This document shows, piece by piece, positions 19,103 through 57,604 of a DNA stretch of 64,000 nucleotides (positions are counted from its first letter, which is position 1; the number at the start of each line of letters is the position of its first letter). The notes beneath the pieces were generated by a model. That model saw only the letters and a list, made by a program, of their open reading frames with translations, had not been told where the DNA came from and ran no database searches. A program made the translations under genes and the position numbers. This DNA comes from a virus, in the IMG/VR virus record IMGVR_UViG_3300045125_000140, positions 62,001 to 126,000 of that record; one strand, given 5' to 3'.

Positions 19103-19454
19103 TATGTTTGACCTAGATAAGGGTCAGCCGCAAATCGTGTGCGCGCTGTCCCATTGGGATATGGATATCCTGGAGAGGCTCTTCAGCCGACTGGACGCAG
19201 AGGCGGCTAAGAAGTGGGCGAACAACGAAGCTAACCGTGAATACGTCCTTTCTCGGAACGGCCTGGTAGCCGTAGAGATGGGTGAGGGGGTTATTCGCGG
19301 AAGCGGTATGATCTGCGCACGACTTCTGGCTAACTGGAATGAAGAGCTCCAGGAGCCCATAACCGGAGACCGGGAAACGAATCTAGTGCTCGACAGCGTC
19401 GCAAAGCGCCTCCCGATTTTTGTAAATCAGGTTATGGAGGCGTTGGCCCCTTGA
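19095..19454 (+). CDS. Unknown protein upstream of the reverse transcriptase
   Basis: A 119-residue, mostly helical protein (SHWDMDILERLFSRLDAEAA). Its TGA overlaps the TTG start of the reverse transcriptase, so the two are probably translated together. No family is recognised. Confidence 0.65.
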   Translation: MLDMFDLDKGQPQIVCALSHWDMDILERLFSRLDAEAAKKWANNEANREYVLSRNGLVAVEMGEGVIRGSGMICARLLANWNEELQEPITGDRETNLVLDSVAKRLPIFVNQVMEALAP

Positions 19455-20515
19455 GCTGGTTATCCAGAACACAGGCGATGGCCAGAAGAGGGATACCCGC
19501 GCGACTGCGTAAGCCCGAGCAGTTTGAGCAGGCTAGGCAGGTGCTAGAGTGCGCGGAGAAGGCGATCATCGACGCGCGCAGCCGAGGAAAGGGGCCCGAT
19601 GTTCGGGTTATAAAGATAGAAAGCCGATCTGGGAAAATTCGAAGGCTGGTAGAGCCAATCGAAGAAATCAAGCTGATTCAAAATCTAATCGGTTTAATCG
19701 TCCACAACATTCTGAAAAACACAGGTTCGCTCACCGGCGTTAAGCGGCAGAATCGGAAAGCTGTGCTCAGCCTTCACGGATTCATGAAAGAGCGAAGCAT
19801 CAAATCGTACGCCGGCAACCATACTCGAAGAAATGTTGTGGTTAAGATGGACATTAAAAACTATTTTGAATCCATCACTGAACCTCTTATTTTTCGAGCG
19901 ATGGATAAAGGTGAGTTAATCGGGTATCACTTTCCAGACTGGCTGCGAAATTATATATCTACGTATTGTCTCTGCTCTACAAATCCTATGCGGATTGCCG
20001 ACAAGGCGGAGACGGCCAGAAAAGCGCTAGCCTTGGGATTTCCGAGCAGTCCTAGCCTAGCAAACGTCGTAAGCGCCTTCTTAGTCGTCCCTCCAATACT
20101 GGGGGTACTTAAGGAGATGGATAAGTACGACATCGCGTTCACCATGTACGCCGACGACATGACCTTCTCTTCGCATTATCCAGAGTGTGCAAAAGTCGCT
20201 CGGATAGTTCCGATGCTCCTAAAACGGGAAGGACTCAGCATAAATAGTAAAAAGACTAAAATCTTAAAGCAGAGCGCTCGTCAGGTCGTGTGCGGTGTTG
20301 TCGTAAATTCTCGGATGGGCGCAACTCGGGCATATCGACGAGCGCTTCGAAAACAGATTCATCACACGACTAAAGAGCTACTAATTGGTGCGAAAACGCC
20401 TGCTAATATTAACGTAAGTGTTTTACGTGGGCAGGTGTCGCACGTTGAATTTCTGAACTCGGCGCACGCTGAGTCGTTAAAACGTCAGCTCAAGACGTTG
20501 GAGGAGTTGGTATGA
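19451..20515 (+). CDS. Reverse transcriptase, retron-like
   Basis: A 354-residue RNA-directed DNA polymerase. Motif A: VKMDIKNYFESI (about 131-142). Motif B: GFPSSPSLANVVSAF (196-210). Motif C with catalytic aspartates: FTMYADDMTFS (230-240). Motif D/E region: NSKKTKILKQSARQVVCGVV, matching the retron pattern in which a VTG-like triplet follows (here VCG). The C-terminal RGQVSHVEFLN resembles the retron thumb. Length and lack of added domains fit retron-type enzymes more than group II introns. No msr/msd gene can lie directly upstream, because the preceding gene overlaps. The start of a 507-residue partner overlaps its stop. Whether it serves defence, diversification or another role is unknown. 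Confidence 0.85.
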   Translation: MSWLSRTQAMARRGIPARLRKPEQFEQARQVLECAEKAIIDARSRGKGPDVRVIKIESRSGKIRRLVEPIEEIKLIQNLIGLIVHNILKNTGSLTGVKRQNRKAVLSLHGFMKERSIKSYAGNHTRRNVVVKMDIKNYFESITEPLIFRAMDKGELIGYHFPDWLRNYISTYCLCSTNPMRIADKAETARKALALGFPSSPSLANVVSAFLVVPPILGVLKEMDKYDIAFTMYADDMTFSSHYPECAKVARIVPMLLKREGLSINSKKTKILKQSARQVVCGVVVNSRMGATRAYRRALRKQIHHTTKELLIGAKTPANINVSVLRGQVSHVEFLNSAHAESLKRQLKTLEELV

Positions 20516-22035
20516 AGAAGGCAATTATTGCTTATCTTAACACGTTCTCGGAGTACGGCGTATCTATTCCGGACGACATGGCCGAGTCCGTAAATAACAT
20601 CGTGGCCGGAGCCTCGGAGCAAATCGGCGGTGTTATTGGAAGTAGGGTGTCGTCGACGCCCGTAAAGCTCACGGATGTGACGACGGGAAGCACTGCGGCA
20701 GAAATTATCAAAAAGGCGGCGGAGGGCGGTACCCATAAAGTTACCGTAGAGTTGCTCGGTCGCTCGTCATACACATGGCCTGAGTTTGGTGGAGGTTTCG
20801 GTGCGTTCAAATTTGAGGTACCCGGGATAGTAATAAAGACCCCGAACAACTACGATCAAGCGGCCTCAGAATTTATAACAAGAATCATAGTAACGTGCGC
20901 GTCTGATAAATTTGCGCACCTGTGTACAATTGACAGCAATAACCAAAAACGCTACAGCGTCGCGGGACAGCTGCAGCTGGGTGCAAAGTTTGCGGACCCG
21001 GAGTCACGTGCCGGCGCTGAGTTGCTCGATAAAGACATTAAAGCGCGCGAAGAAGTTCACGTGCTTGAGGCCATTAAACGGCTGCAAAGATTCCGTGAGC
21101 TTGATCCGATCACCGGAGATAAGGCGGTCATAATCACACCACGATTTAAACTAAATCGTCACGTGATGGATGTGTGTGCTGGAAATACGACAAACCCCGC
21201 TAAAGTTTCGGACGAGATCTCTTTTGATGTCGAATATGTGTCTCGGCAAGAGATACAGAACGGTTTAGACAAAATAGACGAGGAGTACGTCAATCGAAAA
21301 GGGCTCGCTATTCTGGCCTTCACTTTAACCAGCGAGATCGTAAAACATCTGGTCTCCGTGCGGCCGCTGCTTGATACTCCGACTGATAGATTTGAATTAT
21401 CCAAGTTTGTCTTGCAGATGCACAATCAAATCGCGTCTGCCGCGACGTTACGGGACATTACGGTTAGAGACTTCATCAATTTCTTTGACAACGCTGTTTT
21501 GCGATCATATACGAGCACACGGGTTCCTGGGCACTACATCCCGTTGGATCCTCATCAGATTTCGTTAAATTTTATACCATCTGAACTAATCGACGTAAAT
21601 AAAACTGTTTTCGGAGGAGAAGATGACGGGAATCTTCTAGAATCTCAAAACTACAAAGCGGTTTGCCTACTCTTAGCAAATATTCTATCACAAACAGCTT
21701 ATAAACTAGTTCAACGAAAATTCAACTATTTACCGAAAATAGAAAATCGATCGGACGAACTGGTTTCCGCAAACTACGTGGCCGGAGACATTGTTGCCGC
21801 GAAGATAGTTTCGGTAGTCGAGCGCAATAACGCCAGGTCAGCACTATGTAAGGGAATCGGTCCGCGTGGCGACATCGCGTTCTTGATTACCGCAACAGTT
21901 GAACACAGTCGTGAAATCTACGACAGGCTCGATGAGGGGGCGGTGATTGTAAAACCGGCATCGAAGTGGCGGCTGGGTATTGTAGACTCAGTGGAGACTT
22001 TCAAAAATGCAGTTCCGTCATCTGGGATGAGGTAA
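20512..22035 (+). CDS. Large unknown protein coupled to the reverse transcriptase, 507 aa
   Basis: ATG overlaps the reverse transcriptase stop (ATGA). Begins MKKAIIAYLNTFSEYGVSIP. It is mixed alpha/beta with a Gly-rich stretch (WPEFGGGFGAFKFEVPG), with no recognised catalytic motif, signal peptide or membrane segment. The tight coupling suggests that it works with the reverse transcriptase or the Ubl cassette further down. Its size and soluble character resemble the next gene; they may form a pair. Confidence 0.7.
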   Translation: MKKAIIAYLNTFSEYGVSIPDDMAESVNNIVAGASEQIGGVIGSRVSSTPVKLTDVTTGSTAAEIIKKAAEGGTHKVTVELLGRSSYTWPEFGGGFGAFKFEVPGIVIKTPNNYDQAASEFITRIIVTCASDKFAHLCTIDSNNQKRYSVAGQLQLGAKFADPESRAGAELLDKDIKAREEVHVLEAIKRLQRFRELDPITGDKAVIITPRFKLNRHVMDVCAGNTTNPAKVSDEISFDVEYVSRQEIQNGLDKIDEEYVNRKGLAILAFTLTSEIVKHLVSVRPLLDTPTDRFELSKFVLQMHNQIASAATLRDITVRDFINFFDNAVLRSYTSTRVPGHYIPLDPHQISLNFIPSELIDVNKTVFGGEDDGNLLESQNYKAVCLLLANILSQTAYKLVQRKFNYLPKIENRSDELVSANYVAGDIVAAKIVSVVERNNARSALCKGIGPRGDIAFLITATVEHSREIYDRLDEGAVIVKPASKWRLGIVDSVETFKNAVPSSGMR

Positions 22036-22305: not shown

Positions 22306-23964
22306 TTGTTGTCTGGGAGAAAGTCGTATCACAGCGTTTACGGATACTCTTCGTTTGCGTCGGGTTATATAATTAACATGGGAGATAGCTGGTCAACCGG
22401 CGAGAGATGGCACTACCAGAGTGAAGAGAAGCGGCTCACGAGTCCAAATAATCCAGTTTACATAGCTCCCATATCTCAGCAGCAGTTGGGAGTCGTTTCG
22501 ATTCGACGAAGCGCCCAGCAGGTTATGGAAGCGGGATCGGTAACTGCTGCTTGGGCATTTAATCGCGGGCTTCTTAGATTAATCGCGACTGGAAAAGAAT
22601 TTAAATTCTCGCTAAACTCCAGCAGCGCTGAGCTCGTAGTCAAAAAGGATGAGATTGTTTTCGGTGGTCGACGATTTAAAAGCTTGCTGGTAAAACCGGT
22701 GCCGGATATCTCTATAATTGCTAGAACCATCTACACTCGAATTCAGCAAAGAGCTAACATAGCGAACACGTTCGATACGTTCAACGCTCTTCTCGCTGAC
22801 GGTGCTCAAAAGCAAGAGGCTCATGACCACCTTAAAAACGATCAAATCTTGATTGAATTCCTGACAGAGGTCGCCAAGCTCCTCCAAGGAGATTATCAAA
22901 ATGATTTGAAAACTCACAGGTTAAACGTGGTGCGATCCGAGACTCGAAGCATGTTTCAGCCGAAGTTTCAAAGAGGCGGGAATAATGCTAACGACAGTGG
23001 ATTTGACGGACCGTGGGCGGACATAAACACTCACGAGCTGTCGGAGTTTTCGCGATACGAAATGGCGCGCACGTCGGCGATCGAGACCGACCCTAAAATG
23101 CACCTCGCCTCGTTTCGAAATTCAGAAACTCTTCGACAAAAGCTCTATCCGGCCGTCTTCAGCGGCGACGGGAGCGGAGAAAGCGTTGAGGAGCTGTTTA
23201 ACTTCAATAACCTGGTTGAGAGAGTGGTAGAAAGATCGCTGGCACCGGAGCTGTTCATAAAGGGTCAGACATCAGCTGATCTTAAAGCTTCGGGAATGCG
23301 GGTCAAAAAGGTGGACGATAAAACCTGGATCGTGGATATCTTTACGATCGGGGACGTCACCGTCGAGGTGACGGCCGAAACTACTACCGGCGGCGTTCTT
23401 AACTCTACCCGGTATTTTGTAAACGGCTACCAAATCAAGGCGGTGGAGGTAATTAGAGTCGTTACTATGGCTACGTGTTTTGAGAACACTGAGACATATA
23501 ACGAAACGGTTGCCCAAATCTCCGAGGTGTCTCTCGCGGCCAGAGATATTCTTCAAAATGGTTTCCACGCATCCGTAGATACGAACTACAAGACCTCGAA
23601 CATTATGCTCGAGATCGACCGCATTAAAAATAAGTGGGTTCTCGTAATACGAGACAAGGACGGTAACGTAACCAAGAATGTCCACATTCCTGGGGGCGTG
23701 ACTCGGTTCATCTCTGTTCCGAGAATTAGAAACCGCGTAAGAAAAATGACGGTAGAATCTTTTGCGGCACTTCTGGACGGAATTCCGGAATTGGCGTTTA
23801 TAGATATTAAACGTATTCACGAAAACGGTTTCACTAGGTACAATGAAATCATCGCCCGATCGAGGAAGTTCTTGGAGGACGTGATTGGTCTGACCAAGGC
23901 GTCTTTTGGAACTTTCGAGCTCGGCGGGGGCGTAACGCTGGCGCCATTTCTGGATACAGCGTAA
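22306..23964 (+). CDS. Large unknown protein in the RT-Ubl operon, 552 aa or more
   Basis: TTG 22306 is the first usable start, but coding-like sequence in the same frame runs back to 22075 (SPHYAEPGTAGWSTVSTSA), and another frame (SVIWDEVIGAEIAEYIN) covers 22010-22075. The true gene probably starts close to the end of its neighbour, with a one-base break at about 22075-22105. The product is soluble and mixed alpha/beta; residues near DTNYKTSNIMLEIDRIKN and the C-terminal helix (RKFLEDVIGLTKASFGTFEL) show no recognised family. It may be a substrate or effector of the Ubl system that follows; that is only context. Confidence 0.65.
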   Translation: MLSGRKSYHSVYGYSSFASGYIINMGDSWSTGERWHYQSEEKRLTSPNNPVYIAPISQQQLGVVSIRRSAQQVMEAGSVTAAWAFNRGLLRLIATGKEFKFSLNSSSAELVVKKDEIVFGGRRFKSLLVKPVPDISIIARTIYTRIQQRANIANTFDTFNALLADGAQKQEAHDHLKNDQILIEFLTEVAKLLQGDYQNDLKTHRLNVVRSETRSMFQPKFQRGGNNANDSGFDGPWADINTHELSEFSRYEMARTSAIETDPKMHLASFRNSETLRQKLYPAVFSGDGSGESVEELFNFNNLVERVVERSLAPELFIKGQTSADLKASGMRVKKVDDKTWIVDIFTIGDVTVEVTAETTTGGVLNSTRYFVNGYQIKAVEVIRVVTMATCFENTETYNETVAQISEVSLAARDILQNGFHASVDTNYKTSNIMLEIDRIKNKWVLVIRDKDGNVTKNVHIPGGVTRFISVPRIRNRVRKMTVESFAALLDGIPELAFIDIKRIHENGFTRYNEIIARSRKFLEDVIGLTKASFGTFELGGGVTLAPFLDTA

Positions 23965-23969
23965 AGGGA

Positions 23970-24212
23970 ATGTCCGGCAAGTCTTACGTCGTTGCTTGCT
24001 CGGATATTGCCAAAGAAAAGCCGTTCGAGCACGATCACGGCACAAATAAGTTCGGGGCCATCTACTCGATGGAGACGGGCGAATATGTGTGCGTTGTCGA
24101 CCGCTCGAGCGACCAGTCCGGTTACGATGTTATCGCCAACAGGTTGTTGGCGATGTCGAACGACGTGGCTCTTGTGGATCAAATCCACACCTTAGGAAAG
24201 TTTGTTAGTTAA
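23970..24212 (+). CDS. Small unknown protein before the Ubl
   Basis: An 80-residue protein starting MSGKSYVVACSDIAKEKPFE behind AAAGGGA. No domain is recognised. It lies six bases after the large gene and one base before the Ubl start, so it belongs to the cassette. Confidence 0.65.
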   Translation: MSGKSYVVACSDIAKEKPFEHDHGTNKFGAIYSMETGEYVCVVDRSSDQSGYDVIANRLLAMSNDVALVDQIHTLGKFVS

Positions 24213-24213
24213 T

Positions 24214-24423
24214 ATGGTTACGATCAAAGTTGCTTCTCCTCGTGGACACGACGTTCTCGAACTCGCTCCGGCCGACGCGGTGGCTAAGCTCCGCGGCTTC
24301 CTGAACGACAAGAAGTTCGTCTACATCAACGGCCGCATTGTTACGGCCGCCACCCCGATCACGGAAGAAATGGTCACCACGGCTGAGGCGATCACCGTGG
24401 CGCCCAATCTTCAGGGCGGCTGA
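24214..24423 (+). CDS. Ubiquitin-like (beta-grasp) protein ending in Gly-Gly
   Basis: 69 residues from ATG 24214; a TTG four codons upstream has no proper SD. The order strand-strand-helix-strand is visible: VTIKVASPRGHDVLEL, then helix ADAVAKLRGFLNDK, then KFVYINGRIV, then EAITVAPN, closing with LQGG. A C-terminal diglycine on a beta-grasp protein of this size marks ThiS/MoaD/CysO sulfur carriers and conjugated ubiquitin-like proteins. The next two genes are a JAB peptidase and an E1-like activator, the expected partners that process and adenylate such a tail. The GG is the natural C-terminus, so no maturation is needed. Confidence 0.75.
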   Translation: MVTIKVASPRGHDVLELAPADAVAKLRGFLNDKKFVYINGRIVTAATPITEEMVTTAEAITVAPNLQGG

Positions 24424-24425
24424 TC

Positions 24426-24877
24426 TTGCGCCGGGTTGTCTACTACGACAACCGGGTAACTGAAGAAATGGTTTCGCACGCGCTCCGGCACCCTTACGAA
24501 GAAATTTGTGGGGTGCTGGAGGGCAAATATCTTAGCCCCGAGGGAGCAATCTCTCGGGGTGAAGATTTCATCGTGCGAGTCACCGCATACTACCCGGTTA
24601 AAAATACGGCTTCCGACAAGCTCGGCGGGTTCACTATGGATCCGTACGAGACAAAAGCGGCGTGGGACGCGATCATTGAACGCGGTAACCACGTTGTCGG
24701 CTGCTACCACAGCCATCCATTATGGTCGTCGAAGTTCTCGGCCATCGATCTAAGAGAAGCAAAAATGCAGGCGGATGAGCTACTGTGGCTCATCTATGGA
24801 AAAAGGACGATCGCATCTCCGCGTTTGTCTTGGACAAGGATCGAATCAACCTTGTGGAATTGGAGGTGGATGTATGA
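24426..24877 (+). CDS. JAB/MPN-domain metallopeptidase (deubiquitinase-like)
   Basis: TTG start two bases after the Ubl stop. The JAMM zinc site is complete: Glu in HPYEEICGVLEG (about residue 25), then HSHPLWSSKFSAID, which fits HxHx7Sx2D exactly (His 95, His 97, Ser 105, Asp 108). Such enzymes cut isopeptide or C-terminal bonds of ubiquitin-like proteins (Mec+, Rpn11). As read, the frame runs on to 24992 with an odd basic tail. One more A in the run at 24800-24804 gives the natural ending KKDDRISAFVLDKDRINLVE and a stop overlapping the E1 start, so a one-base loss is likely. The expected length is about 150 residues. Confidence 0.8.
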
Positions 24878-25470
24878 AGAATATGCACATCGTGGGCTGC
24901 GGCGGAATCGGCTCGTACTTCTGCGGCGAAGTCGACCGGCTCGTAAAGACGCAGCAGCTCAAGGACTTGATGGTCACTATCTGGGATGGTGACGACGTCG
25001 AGCTCAAAAACCTCACGTATCAAAACTTCAGCGAAAACGAGGTCTACGCCAACAAGGCGGCTACGCTCGGTCGCAGATATCAGCTAAACTCGGCTCAGAG
25101 CCGGGTGGAAGACTTTGATAAGCCCCCGATCAACGACGCCACTATCATCGTTTTGTGCGTCGATAACGTCAAAACTCGAAAAGCGTTTTTCGAAAGCCGC
25201 CTCTTCGAGAGGGTGCAGTGGATCGATCTCCGGTCGCAGGGCCGCGCGGTGGCGTACTACTGCTCTTCGAAAATGACCACTCGGGAGTTCATGCTCTCGA
25301 CTCTTCCGGAAAAACAGGAGGAGGGTACCGGCTCCTGCCAGTACGCTACAGATATTCTGAACAATCGTATCGAGAACGGCAACAAGATCGTTGCCGCTAT
25401 CGGCGCGCAAGTGCTCTTAAATCTTGTTCGAAAAGAACAACTGGTTTCGAACTACATCCACGAGTTCTAA
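24874..25470 (+). CDS. E1-like activating enzyme (ThiF/MoeB family)
   Basis: 198 residues from ATG 24874, overlapping the corrected JAB stop. The Rossmann nucleotide loop is GCGGIGS (residues 8-14). The second motif DGDDVELKNLTYQ (38-50) matches the E1 pattern D-x-D-x-V-E-x-x-N-L-x-R-Q, with Tyr replacing the usual Arg. CVDNVKTR (95-102) is the third E1 motif. Cys154 in TGSCQYATD is a candidate catalytic cysteine. These enzymes adenylate the Gly-Gly end of a Ubl. It is shorter than MoeB and has no rhodanese domain. No E2 gene is recognisable, so either sulfur carriage or E2-free conjugation is possible. Confidence 0.82.
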   Translation: MKNMHIVGCGGIGSYFCGEVDRLVKTQQLKDLMVTIWDGDDVELKNLTYQNFSENEVYANKAATLGRRYQLNSAQSRVEDFDKPPINDATIIVLCVDNVKTRKAFFESRLFERVQWIDLRSQGRAVAYYCSSKMTTREFMLSTLPEKQEEGTGSCQYATDILNNRIENGNKIVAAIGAQVLLNLVRKEQLVSNYIHEF

Positions 25471-26810: not shown

Positions 26811-27015
26811 AGAGATTGAAGAACGCGTCAACTTGCTTTACCGGAAAAAGAAAGTTATTGAAAACAAAATCAATAGCTACCTGATATTTCTAAAAAACAA
26901 CCCCAATGATTCGTTTCAAAACGACTACAGGAAGATGATTGACGATCTGGAAGAGAGGCTCGCCAAAACGGACGAGATACTGGCTAATATTAAAGAGCTA
27001 TGCAAACCTTCCTGA
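26803..27015 (+). CDS. Small coiled-coil protein, 70 aa
   Basis: MNKEIEERVNLLYRKKKVIE behind GGGAG; an eight-base overlap with the previous gene. Almost wholly helical with heptads (DDLEERLAKTDEILANIKEL). Function unknown. Confidence 0.65.
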   Translation: MNKEIEERVNLLYRKKKVIENKINSYLIFLKNNPNDSFQNDYRKMIDDLEERLAKTDEILANIKELCKPS

Positions 27016-27427
27016 TAAGTCGATCGTTCCTGGTTACGGCGCAAGCTCTCGACGATAAACGTCTAGGCAAGCAACGCGTCGAAACCTTGCAAATCTTAAA
27101 CACACTCACTGGAAAATCTAAGGGATGGGTAAACCATCCTGCCGTTAAAATGTGGAAAGGGCACGAAGGTGCTCTGATACGTTACGGCGAGGCTATGATA
27201 GGTGAGTGGCGGCATCGTGGCTTCAAAAACACGATGAGTCTGTACGGAACTTTTGGGATATTCCGGATGGTCCGGAACCACCTTGGATGTACGATGAGCG
27301 GGCGGAGCGTGTGTTCGCTTCGCATCGAGCAAACCTGTTAAGAAAGGACGCGGCCTACTACGGATATTTTGGTTGGACTGAAGATCCAACAATGCCGTAT
27401 TACTGGCCGACAGGAGACGATCCATGA
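27000..27427 (+). CDS. Pyrimidine-dimer DNA glycosylase-like protein, frame-broken
   Basis: MQTFLISRSFLVTAQALDDK, then RLGKQRVETLQIL and NHPAVKMWKGHEGALIRYGE, match a widespread small family annotated as pyrimidine dimer DNA glycosylase/endonuclease V-like (MSMEG_6728-type). The second half (PPWMYDERAERVFASHRANL, then KDAAYYGYFGW) follows in another frame. One more A in the run at 27225-27229 joins them as GFKKHDESV. Expected length is about 142 residues. It probably takes part in DNA repair or removal of UV lesions, but function in this subfamily is not well established. Confidence 0.65.
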
Positions 27428-54355: not shown

Positions 54356-57300
54356 TCAGATGTAGATTGTTATATCGGCATGAGCCGCGGTGTAGTATGG
54401 GCGTACCTGGTACGAAACCAGGAACGTGTCGGCGCGTACCGGATCTTCCGTAACGGATACGAGAACGATCTCGCGCATCTCCTTGTTGGAGATTACGTCC
54501 TTGATGACCGCGCCGGACAATACCGAGAAGAGGTCAAAGAACGAGCGGTCAAGGATCGTCGATCCGATTATGGGAGAAATCTGCTTACGGAGGCGGCGAG
54601 CGAGATTATCTACCTGAGTCGTTACCGACTCTTCGAGATAATTAAGCTGTGTCACGTCGGTTGTTACAGCGCGGATAGCCTCGACGTTCGAGTTGTCTCC
54701 GGCGAGCTGGACCAACACGAAGTTGCCGCCGTCGAGGATCTTATCCAGGTCGGTATCGGCTGAGCCGCCGCCTTGAACAAGGCGCTGGACGCCGGAGAAC
54801 GGGCGGCGCGTGAGCGTCGCCGACGCCGGGATGCTCGACCGCATTGCTGCCAAGATCGAGGCCGGGTACCAACCACCGACTTCGTAGTTTGCCACGGTCC
54901 CGCCGCCGTAAATGCCTACCGAGGTGTCGTTCGGATTCGTGACGTCCGAGAACGTAACGAGGCAGCGATCGGGGTAGACGTTGCGGAAGCGGCGATTCTT
55001 GATCGTTGCGGGATACGCAGCGATTGCATCGCGAACCTGCGTTGCCGAGAGCGGCTTCGACTTGATGGTGATCGACGAGAGAACAACACCGCCTGTCAGG
55101 GTTATCGGATCCGTCGAGCGGCGGAGGAGGGTTAACGTCGAATCACCTGAGGTGCTTACGCTAACTACCCGCATGTCCGACACCGAACCAGACACGAAGC
55201 CCTTATCAGCGACCTGGCCGAAGTACTCGAACGAGACGAGGTCGCCCGGAATTACGCCAAGAGCAGGGAGTCCTTTATCGGTGCTCCACGTGATCGTCGG
55301 AGTTGCCGACGCCGACGTGCAAACAAACTTGGCTGTATCCAGAGCCGCGGCTGCCCAGGTGTATCTGGTGATCTGCGACTCCTGACGATGCGACTGGAAG
55401 AGGATCCGTTCGCGCTTGTTTTCCGGCTGGCTTTCGAGCTCCACGTGAGCTCGGAAAAGGCCAAGATACGTCTCGTTTTGAGTGAGCGGGGCAACCGAGT
55501 AGACCTGGCTGGTCTTGATCAGGTTGATTGCGTTTGTCCAGCCGGAAGAGGTGTCCGCTGAAACCTGCGCGCAGTAAACCGGCACGGTCGTGTTTGACAC
55601 CGCAGCAGCGGCCGCAAATCCGAGCGGATTGTGCGGAACTGCCGGGCCGAGAATCGATTCGACCGTATCGGCGTTTACCTCGATGAGTTCTCCGGCGTGA
55701 TCATTTCTAACCGACGCAAAGGACACGAGTACGTCCGCCACCAGAGAGGACACTACCTTACGAACCTGGTAATTCACATCCTCAAGAGCGTCCGCGACTT
55801 CGATAGTCGTACGCAGGCCGTCGTACGCAGTACCGGTGCTCGTTATGATACCGGCCGTATCCTTGACGACCACGGACGTTTCGCCGACTACCTTGGTGAC
55901 GATGAGTTCGGCCGGCGTCGGCTTTGCGGTGACTACCGGGAGCGCAAAGCTCGCCGAGTACGTCAAACCAGCCTTCGTATCCGGAACAACCGTAAACAAC
56001 GTTGTCGAGCTAGCCGCCGTAATCTTGAACAAGAGTATGCCGGTTTGCGAGAAAACGAGATCGTTTACAGCCAGGGCAGTGCCCGGAGCCGAATCAAGAT
56101 TCATGGTCCAAACGCCGCTGGAGAGCGTGAACTGCGCCTTTGCAATCGATGCCGCAGCCGCAACCCCGTCAATTACGAGAGCGTTAGCTGGCATGCCGCT
56201 GGACGGAAGGTACGTGGGAACGTCGTTTCCGTAAATGTCCGTGACGACCAATGAGCTGCTCGTTCCGCTCGTAACCTTAAAGGCTACCTTGGCGCGAATC
56301 GACATGACGATTACTGTGCTTGTTCCAGCTACCGGCGCGGTCTCAAGGGTGAGCTCTGCGCCCGAGTTGTTGACCGAAACGATTGTCGAGAACAGGCGAT
56401 TAACGAACGCGGTACCGCTAAGGACTACGACCTTGTCGCCGGACTTAAACGCGCTGAATGGCGTTCCCGACGCGGCAGTCACGGTTTTGGCAGTGTTGTC
56501 TAATACAACGCCTGTCTCTCTTACCAAACGATCCGAGCAGATAACGAGGTCATCAGCCGCCGGAGACGAGAACGTTCCGGAGATGGTGCGGCTTCCCGCA
56601 TCACCGACGACGGTTGCGGCAATTACCGTATTGCGAACTGTTTCAATGCCGTCCTTATAAAGCTCGTACGCGCGTTGAGGCTTGCCGGCAGATCCAGCGA
56701 TATCCGAATCAGCGATAGTTGGCGAAACTGCTACGGCCGAGAATCCGGTGCCGGTTCCGGAAGTAAGGAGCATGAACGCCGGATATTTTACGCCCAGGTC
56801 GTTTGAAAGATAGACGAGATCGCCGACCTTAGCGGTAACCGAGCCGCTAAACGTGATCGTGCGCACGCCGGAAGAGTCTGCGGCGGTGAAGCTTAGCTTG
56901 TTGCCGATTATTTGACGACCATCCCAGCCTTGCACGGTGACGATATCGCCGGCTCTTACGCCTTCGGTAACAAATCCGTCGTAGACTGTCCCGGCGTCGC
57001 CCGTGTAAGTAAGCGTTCTATAAAGACCGGTCGCAGCCGATATAGAGACCTTCGAGTCATCGGGACCACGATCTATCCGGTCAACGGAGAGAGTTGTATC
57101 ATCGACAACGGAGGACACCGTAAAAGCTTGGCGGCCGTTTACGCTGATAATATCGTTTGCCGCAACTTGATCTGTGACAAAGTCCGCCGACGGATCAGTG
57201 AAGTATCCGGTAACGGCATTGTAGTTTCCGGTAGATCCGGTAACCGTATCAAAAATCGCCGTGGTCGTTGGCGACAAATCAAACGTCGGAGGCGTAACTC

Positions 57301-57604
57301 CGAGGTTGAAGGTCGCGTACGAGGTGACGTCGGCAACGCCGTAAGAGGTGCTGAGATAGACCTTGGGACGGATGGTGGAGTCAACTGCGGAGGTGTTGGG
57401 CTCAACAACCGCGCCGCTGATGAGGCCCGGGAACGCGTAATCCGCGTACTCCGCGTTAGTTTGGAAAGTGCCTGCGTAGGCTCTGTAAACTAACTGGCGG
57501 TTAAGTCCGACGAGAACGGCCGGGTTATTGGCCGTAGGGACGGTGGCCTGAGCGGCTCTAAAAACTTGGCGAATTATAAGATCAGGGCGAAGGCTGCTGG
57601 CCAT
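54356..57604 (-). CDS. Tail sheath protein, very long
   Basis: 1082 residues. The N-terminus (SLRPDLIIRQVFRAAQATVP) and C-terminus (LNYLEESVTTQVDNLARRLR, then IIGSTILDRSFFDLFSVLSG) match the conserved sheath ends that link neighbouring subunits. The middle is a long series of Thr/Ser/Val-rich beta domains that make it much longer than most sheaths (about 400-700 residues). Contracts during infection. The extra domains probably face outward. Confidence 0.85.
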   Translation of the reverse strand: MASSLRPDLIIRQVFRAAQATVPTANNPAVLVGLNRQLVYRAYAGTFQTNAEYADYAFPGLISGAVVEPNTSAVDSTIRPKVYLSTSYGVADVTSYATFNLGVTPPTFDLSPTTTAIFDTVTGSTGNYNAVTGYFTDPSADFVTDQVAANDIISVNGRQAFTVSSVVDDTTLSVDRIDRGPDDSKVSISAATGLYRTLTYTGDAGTVYDGFVTEGVRAGDIVTVQGWDGRQIIGNKLSFTAADSSGVRTITFSGSVTAKVGDLVYLSNDLGVKYPAFMLLTSGTGTGFSAVAVSPTIADSDIAGSAGKPQRAYELYKDGIETVRNTVIAATVVGDAGSRTISGTFSSPAADDLVICSDRLVRETGVVLDNTAKTVTAASGTPFSAFKSGDKVVVLSGTAFVNRLFSTIVSVNNSGAELTLETAPVAGTSTVIVMSIRAKVAFKVTSGTSSSLVVTDIYGNDVPTYLPSSGMPANALVIDGVAAAASIAKAQFTLSSGVWTMNLDSAPGTALAVNDLVFSQTGILLFKITAASSTTLFTVVPDTKAGLTYSASFALPVVTAKPTPAELIVTKVVGETSVVVKDTAGIITSTGTAYDGLRTTIEVADALEDVNYQVRKVVSSLVADVLVSFASVRNDHAGELIEVNADTVESILGPAVPHNPLGFAAAAAVSNTTVPVYCAQVSADTSSGWTNAINLIKTSQVYSVAPLTQNETYLGLFRAHVELESQPENKRERILFQSHRQESQITRYTWAAAALDTAKFVCTSASATPTITWSTDKGLPALGVIPGDLVSFEYFGQVADKGFVSGSVSDMRVVSVSTSGDSTLTLLRRSTDPITLTGGVVLSSITIKSKPLSATQVRDAIAAYPATIKNRRFRNVYPDRCLVTFSDVTNPNDTSVGIYGGGTVANYEVGGWYPASILAAMRSSIPASATLTRRPFSGVQRLVQGGGSADTDLDKILDGGNFVLVQLAGDNSNVEAIRAVTTDVTQLNYLEESVTTQVDNLARRLRKQISPIIGSTILDRSFFDLFSVLSGAVIKDVISNKEMREIVLVSVTEDPVRADTFLVSYQVRPYYTAAHADITIYI

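Follow-up and report, generated by a model that had tools for sequence, protein, structure and literature searches.

The window, 64,000 nucleotides in all, covers bases 62,001 to 126,000 of a 155,302-bp IMG/VR virus record. The record encodes a head protein, a PolA-type polymerase, helicases, and a UvsX-like recombinase, and is therefore a phage, as an earlier sequence-only reading had held; the phage is of the bacterial type. Four consecutive genes lie on the plus strand: a large module protein (LP, 22306-24212), a 69-amino-acid ubiquitin-like protein (Ubl, 24214-24423), a JAB/JAMM metallopeptidase (24426-24877), and a 198-amino-acid E1-like adenylating enzyme (24874-25470). The last three are located where that reading had put them, but it had missed both LP and a frame break within the JAB gene.

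The Ubl gene extends from an ATG at 24214 to a stop codon ending at 24423. The protein terminates in ...NLQGG, with the Gly-Gly codons at 24415-24420 and the stop codon immediately 3' of them. Sequence libraries, including Pfam, NCBIfam, and PADLOC, recognized no family, a single-sequence search of the PDB gave no match, and a Pfam S4 match was taken as chance. An AlphaFold2 model built with 42 aligned relatives (pLDDT 89.7) has a beta-grasp fold in the order strand-strand-helix-strand-strand-short helix-strand, followed by a loose Gly-Gly tail. Each of the 50 Foldseek PDB matches listed for this model is to ubiquitin or a ubiquitin-like protein; the scores are modest, the best having E 8e-3, a probability of 0.99, and a TM of about 0.5. 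The 69-mer had been described as a beta-grasp protein with a free Gly-Gly, a description that a different fold would have overturned; the predicted fold, the ubiquitin matches, and the ...NLQGG end all uphold it. Both glycines, G68 and G69, are invariant across the 42 aligned Ubls, and the Ubl profile matches 57 viral Ubls. All phage-type Ubls terminate in GG plus 0 to 4 amino acids, and homologs with such ends are present in every sufficiently covered related locus; the background is about 4% of open reading frames (ORFs) of 60 to 95 amino acids in these loci, with the Ubls counted in.

The JAB gene reads from 24426, where the TTG start codon is uncertain. Its product matches Pfam Prok-JAB above the gathering score (E 3e-16), and the best NCBIfam match is to desampylase (E 2e-16; 59.9 bits versus a cut-off of 130). 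The motif E..HSHPLWSSKFSAID, i.e., HxHx7SxxD, is complete, with H-S-H starting at 24708 and the whole extending to 24749. Together with the Prok-JAB match, this agrees with the previous description of a JAMM peptidase that has all of its zinc and catalytic residues. The reading frame is broken at about 24,797, within a run of A. From there, the -1 frame reads KKDDRISAFVLDKDRINLVELEVDV and then a stop, and its ending, ...DRISAFVLDKDRINLVELEVDV, is the one conserved among family members. A JAB profile of the relatives scores 41.3 bits with the -1 tail versus 34.9 bits with the frame as deposited. The true end of the gene is the TGA at 24875-24877 in the -1 frame, which overlaps the ATG of the E1 gene.

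That ATG, at 24874, is the true E1 start; the ORF opens earlier, at 24775, which extends the N terminus too far. The protein matches Pfam ThiF at 2.8e-8, over the gathering score, and PRTRC_ThiF is its best NCBIfam match (E 2e-9; 37 bits versus a cut-off of 145). It has GCGGIGS at residues 8-14 and a cysteine, Cys155 (codon 25336-25338), that is conserved in 81 of 81 E1s of the clade and occupies the same alignment column as the Cys of Escherichia coli MoeB and ThiF. The nucleotide-binding motif, the acidic (Asp) residues, and Lys61 are likewise kept across the 81 relatives. At residue 49, where the NLxRQ motif normally has Arg, there is a Tyr, and this is so throughout the clade (81/81); E. 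coli MoeB and ThiF have Arg, PRTRC E1s retain it, and crAss E1s have Gly at that site. Since the Arg is Tyr in all 81 E1s, adenylation by these enzymes needs proof. The replacement limits what may be claimed for activity, not for descent, because homology to E1 stands on the Pfam match and the tree. In a maximum-likelihood tree, in which the window E1 has a long branch and support is only moderate at some nodes, this protein falls with the E1s of phages and magrovirus-like contigs. A PRTRC/plasmid ThiF clade lies next to them, with E. coli MoeB and ThiF distant. Membership among non-Ubl Rossmann enzymes had been named as the alternative, and the protein groups instead beside these Ubl-type ThiF proteins; the ThiF match and the shared cysteine column likewise support the view of it as a short ThiF/MoeB-like activator. 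By its sequence, we classify it as a Ubl-type E1.

Relatives were collected from IMG/VR. Single-sequence scans with E1, LP, or JAB returned no match there; alignment-based scans succeeded. A scan with the E1 alignment yielded 267 relatives, of which 80 were kept, and a second one, aimed at the window's clade, yielded 178, of which 80 were kept. Sixteen non-redundant phage contigs, reaching 210 kb in length, share the order LP-Ubl-[JAB]-E1, with JAB in 14 of the 16; there is no adjacent JAB in L108 (the same contig as L007) or L122. The usual flanks in phage contigs, of which the RNR, sigma, and PolA genes were named by sequence inspection, are an RNR-like gene, a 142-amino-acid gene, sigma70, and PolA. 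The window retains the module, without these four flanks. In a second group of contigs (L010-L086), those sampled encode a chaperonin, a TFIIB-type zinc ribbon whose match is under the gathering score, and in many cases a split PolB, features that match the description of Aoguangviridae (PMC10768690). Models for MCM and PCNA found nothing in the sampled contigs of this group, which look magrovirus-like. Among the magrovirus-like loci with enough flanking sequence, LP, Ubl, JAB, and E1 are all present in 46 of 46. The words ThiF, JAB, and ubiquitin are absent from the main text of two magrovirus papers, PMC10160649 and PMC5332604. The dN/dS values are 0 to 0.25 for the module, with Ubl at or below about 0.1, and the module is under purifying selection. 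Its recurrence across large phages and archaeal viruses, dozens in all, suggests that these viruses run a protein-tagging pathway of their own.

The fourth gene, LP, lies directly upstream of Ubl and is split into two ORFs (22306-23964 and 23970-24212), with the break near 23,930. Against an LP profile of L007-L009, the first ORF matches positions 456-641 (E 1.6e-16) and the second matches positions 652-723 (E 2.3e-12). Because they match consecutive parts of one profile, the two ORFs are a single gene interrupted by a frame break. The phage-type and magrovirus-type LP families are homologous (hhalign 98.5%, E 2.6e-14). They share a C-terminal motif that has a Cys in G-x-x-C-x-[DN]; next come a conserved helix containing R, A, and ND and, after it, a Thr. 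The Cys, encoded in the window at 24090-24092 in the context GEYVCVVD, does not vary among 17 phage-type and 50 magrovirus-type LPs. LP matches no known family and constitutes a new component family. When we scanned 84,980 cellular genomes with two short magrovirus-type LP patterns, which may miss divergent copies, only one contig was found; it belongs to a Maricaulis metagenome-assembled genome and is probably misbinned. In crAss001 and DAC15, JAB and E1 are present, and profile searches found no LP or matching Ubl.

Could LP be the E2 that the cassette seems to lack? The earlier reading had seen no recognizable E2, and this is borne out, in that hhalign with small and large profiles detected no similarity of LP to E2 or Prok-E2_D, although the three E2 sequences used were approximate, which makes that control weak. 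At the sequence level, homology of LP to PRTRC_B or to a classical E2 was thus rejected. The AlphaFold2 model of a magrovirus-type LP (pLDDT 85.7, pTM 0.56) is predicted to place a helix, a strand meander, the Cys, and a helix in the order seen in E2s. With LP, Foldseek gave several UBC domains among its weak matches, none of them significant. In a viral structure library, the close matches are all unnamed or uncharacterized. A match of LP to RNA polymerase D in the sequence libraries was taken as chance. We treat an E2 role for LP as a lead, not a result. Alternatively, LP may be a dedicated target or partner of Ubl, switched by tagging as cGAS is in CBASS; this would fit conjugation in general and differ only in the role of LP. 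We consider it unlikely, though the absence of similarity to E2 families would be expected, and LP occurs in every fully covered locus and adjoins Ubl in the phages. However, the residue that never varies in LP is not a lysine but a Cys, set in a conserved motif, and the order of elements in the C-terminal domain is E2-like.

With frame breaks in both LP and JAB, it is tempting to regard the cassette as decaying in this genome. The breaks would then be real mutations, which we judge improbable. Ubl and E1 are intact, as are the relatives, and a nearby gene at 27000-27427 (+), presumably a pyrimidine-dimer-type DNA glycosylase, is split between two frames in the same way. Given that this gene is likewise broken, the breaks most likely reflect indel errors in the contig.

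Cassettes of Ubl, E1, and JAB are already known from host metabolism, plasmids, and anti-phage defense systems, and the module resembles several of them in part. By its E1 and by its JAB-ThiF pair, PRTRC is the closest. As in PRTRC plasmids and ICEs, a JAB gene is followed by a ThiF gene, and the E1 lies in a neighboring tree clade with PRTRC_ThiF as its best NCBIfam match. Unlike PRTRC, the window has LP instead of Prok-E2_D/PRTRC_B, which was not found in its phage; the Ubl ends in GG rather than GTKG, the JAB is of the HSHP rather than the HSHN..AFFS type, and the E1 has Tyr for Arg. Prok-E2_D and the PRTRC types of Ubl and JAB are missing from its LP-type relatives as well. The NCBIfam models PRTRC_A and PRTRC_C match neither the window JAB nor the Ubl. 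A PRTRC-like set, in which the matches to Prok-E2_D are weak, is present in phages such as Arash, KLEB27-3, and D69. The lambda TAPI/TAPK pair also combines a phage Ubl with a JAB, where the Ubl has a C-terminal extension and the JAB is joined with NlpC/P60 in a tail locus with no E1 (PMC1779556; Iyer 2006). In contrast, the window Ubl stops at Gly-Gly, and its JAB is short and stand-alone, with E1 next to it.

Bil and type II CBASS likewise hold a Ubl or target, an E1, and a JAB within one operon, but the module has neither an E2 domain nor a tandem-Ubl BilA and is found in viruses, not in host defense. The PADLOC matches of the cassette are weak and partial, with no E2 recognized. Nevertheless, JAB and E1 do match, weakly, the PADLOC JAB and E1-E2 models, and defense systems share this chemistry (PMC10097602), so the phage kit might poison or reverse a host Ubl defense (Bil or type II CBASS) through competition for E1 and E2 or cleavage by JAB. 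We find this very improbable. Cleaving host conjugates does not require the full set of Ubl, E1, and LP, and presence in 46/46 covered magrovirus-like contigs, along with a conserved order in the core region of phages, is unlike variable accessory anti-defense genes. Simple counter-defense, which the earlier reading had entertained, is a poor fit for a module that two very different virus groups carry almost universally in their replication region.

That reading had also invoked the CysO/Mec+/MoeZ system, in which Ubl, JAB, and E1 are adjacent as they are here. As a sulfur carrier, the Ubl would be converted by E1 to a thiocarboxylate, from which a tRNA, nucleotide, or cofactor would receive its sulfur; JAB would free the product, along CysO/Mec+ or TtuB-like lines. 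A small, ThiS-size Ubl together with JAB and E1 makes up a CysO-type kit, the ThiF Cys and Cys155 share an alignment column, and the module adjoins nucleotide-metabolism genes in relatives. However, no cysteine synthase was recognized beside the module, no sulfur-accepting enzyme is evident among the neighboring genes, and the E1 is without a rhodanese domain. Rhodanese was absent from all 9 records searched, and cysteine desulfurase was not found in the phage of the window (another record has one weak Aminotran_5 match); both results argue against the CysO/Mec+ reading. Host sulfur donors could still supply the sulfur, but LP would be left unexplained. Altogether, we regard a sulfur carrier as doubtful.

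The module belongs to none of PRTRC, Bil, CysO, and lambda-TAPI. Its nearest functional analog may be the archaeal SAMP/UbaA/HvJAMM system of Haloferax, with which it shares a SAMP-type parts list, i.e., a single Gly-Gly Ubl, a stand-alone E1, a JAMM desampylase, and no E2; membership is putative. The desampylase match of the window JAB is below the curated cut-off. In addition, the window genes are clustered, viral (in a bacterial-type phage), and accompanied by LP, and the E1 is shorter, with Tyr for Arg. Archaeal SAMPs are known to be conjugated with no E2 involved.

With moderate confidence, we interpret the cassette as one copy of a virus-specific four-gene Ubl conjugation module, LP-Ubl-JAB-E1. 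What stands of the sequence-only reading is a Ubl, a JAMM peptidase, and an E1 in a phage with no recognizable E2; the minimal three-gene kit that it had proposed is instead a four-gene viral module, and its CysO/Mec+ and simple counter-defense interpretations find little support. This analysis shows the sequences, predicted folds, motifs, co-occurrence, gene order, and selection; the whole of the chemistry, the part played by LP, and the identity of the targets are inferred. The most economical reading of this evidence is that the module would carry out reversible Ubl-protein conjugation, with LP as a candidate E2-like carrier or dedicated target. E1 would adenylate the C-terminal glycine of Ubl with ATP and then hold it as a thioester on Cys155. 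Ubl would next be joined to a lysine on the target protein. This transfer could be direct, as archaeal SAMPylation is, or LP could mediate it in an E2-like manner with its invariant Cys. JAB would remove the tag and trim the Ubl precursors that, in many relatives, have 1 to 4 residues beyond Gly-Gly; the window Ubl, which ends at Gly-Gly, needs no such trimming.

The module probably serves the infection program, because in relatives it lies in the replication and nucleotide-metabolism region beside genes for RNR, sigma70 or a TFB-like factor, and DNA polymerase. In Haloferax, SAMP1/HvJAMM1 conjugation is described as reversible (PMC4443979), and Ubl-modified TBP2 is reported to be targeted for degradation (PMC4895103). 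By a neighborhood argument from TBP2, the sigma70 and TFB-like genes of the relatives are candidate targets. More tentatively, and as a possibility with the odds against it, large tailed phages and magrovirus-like archaeal viruses may share a complete, virus-owned Ubl conjugation pathway in which LP does the E2 step and the Tyr-variant E1 activates, with a core infection function on the transcription or replication machinery. A conserved, virus-specific version common to bacterial phages and archaeal viruses would mean that Ubl tagging is part of the viruses' own program. The module offers a testable four-protein system, defines the LP family, and would represent a viral branch in the prehistory of ubiquitin signaling.

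Several other observations concern the module's surroundings and related loci. Immediately 5' of LP, 20512-22035 (+) encodes a 507-amino-acid protein of no known family, which the LP profile does not match. Also upstream of the module, 19451-20515 (+) encodes a retron/RT-like reverse transcriptase (RVT_1; PADLOC RT_III-A, E 1e-43; phrog_2825) that was not noticed in the related loci read. Twelve magrovirus-type Ubls (L048 1379-1585 and 11 similar) have a weak Pfam match to the T4 PinA Lon inhibitor (Inhibitor_I24, E 4.6e-4, below gathering), possibly by chance. In crAss001, gp76-79 (L003 2244-6654) include JAB and an E1 with Gly replacing the Arg, as does L181; gp79 has a possible Ubl-like N terminus, and the E1 is annotated as a thiamine biosynthesis protein. 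Salmonella phage Arash, for which a literature search found no publication, is the nearest named relative seen, through distant matches of E1 and of a 1,082-amino-acid protein (54356-57604, minus strand) with 26% identity to an Arash structural protein. Vibrio phage D69 (L006 1391-2182) has three tandem PRTRC_C-like repeats ending in ..GTKG, beside a Prok-E2_D-like protein, JAB, and ThiF, which together make a phage-borne PRTRC-like set.
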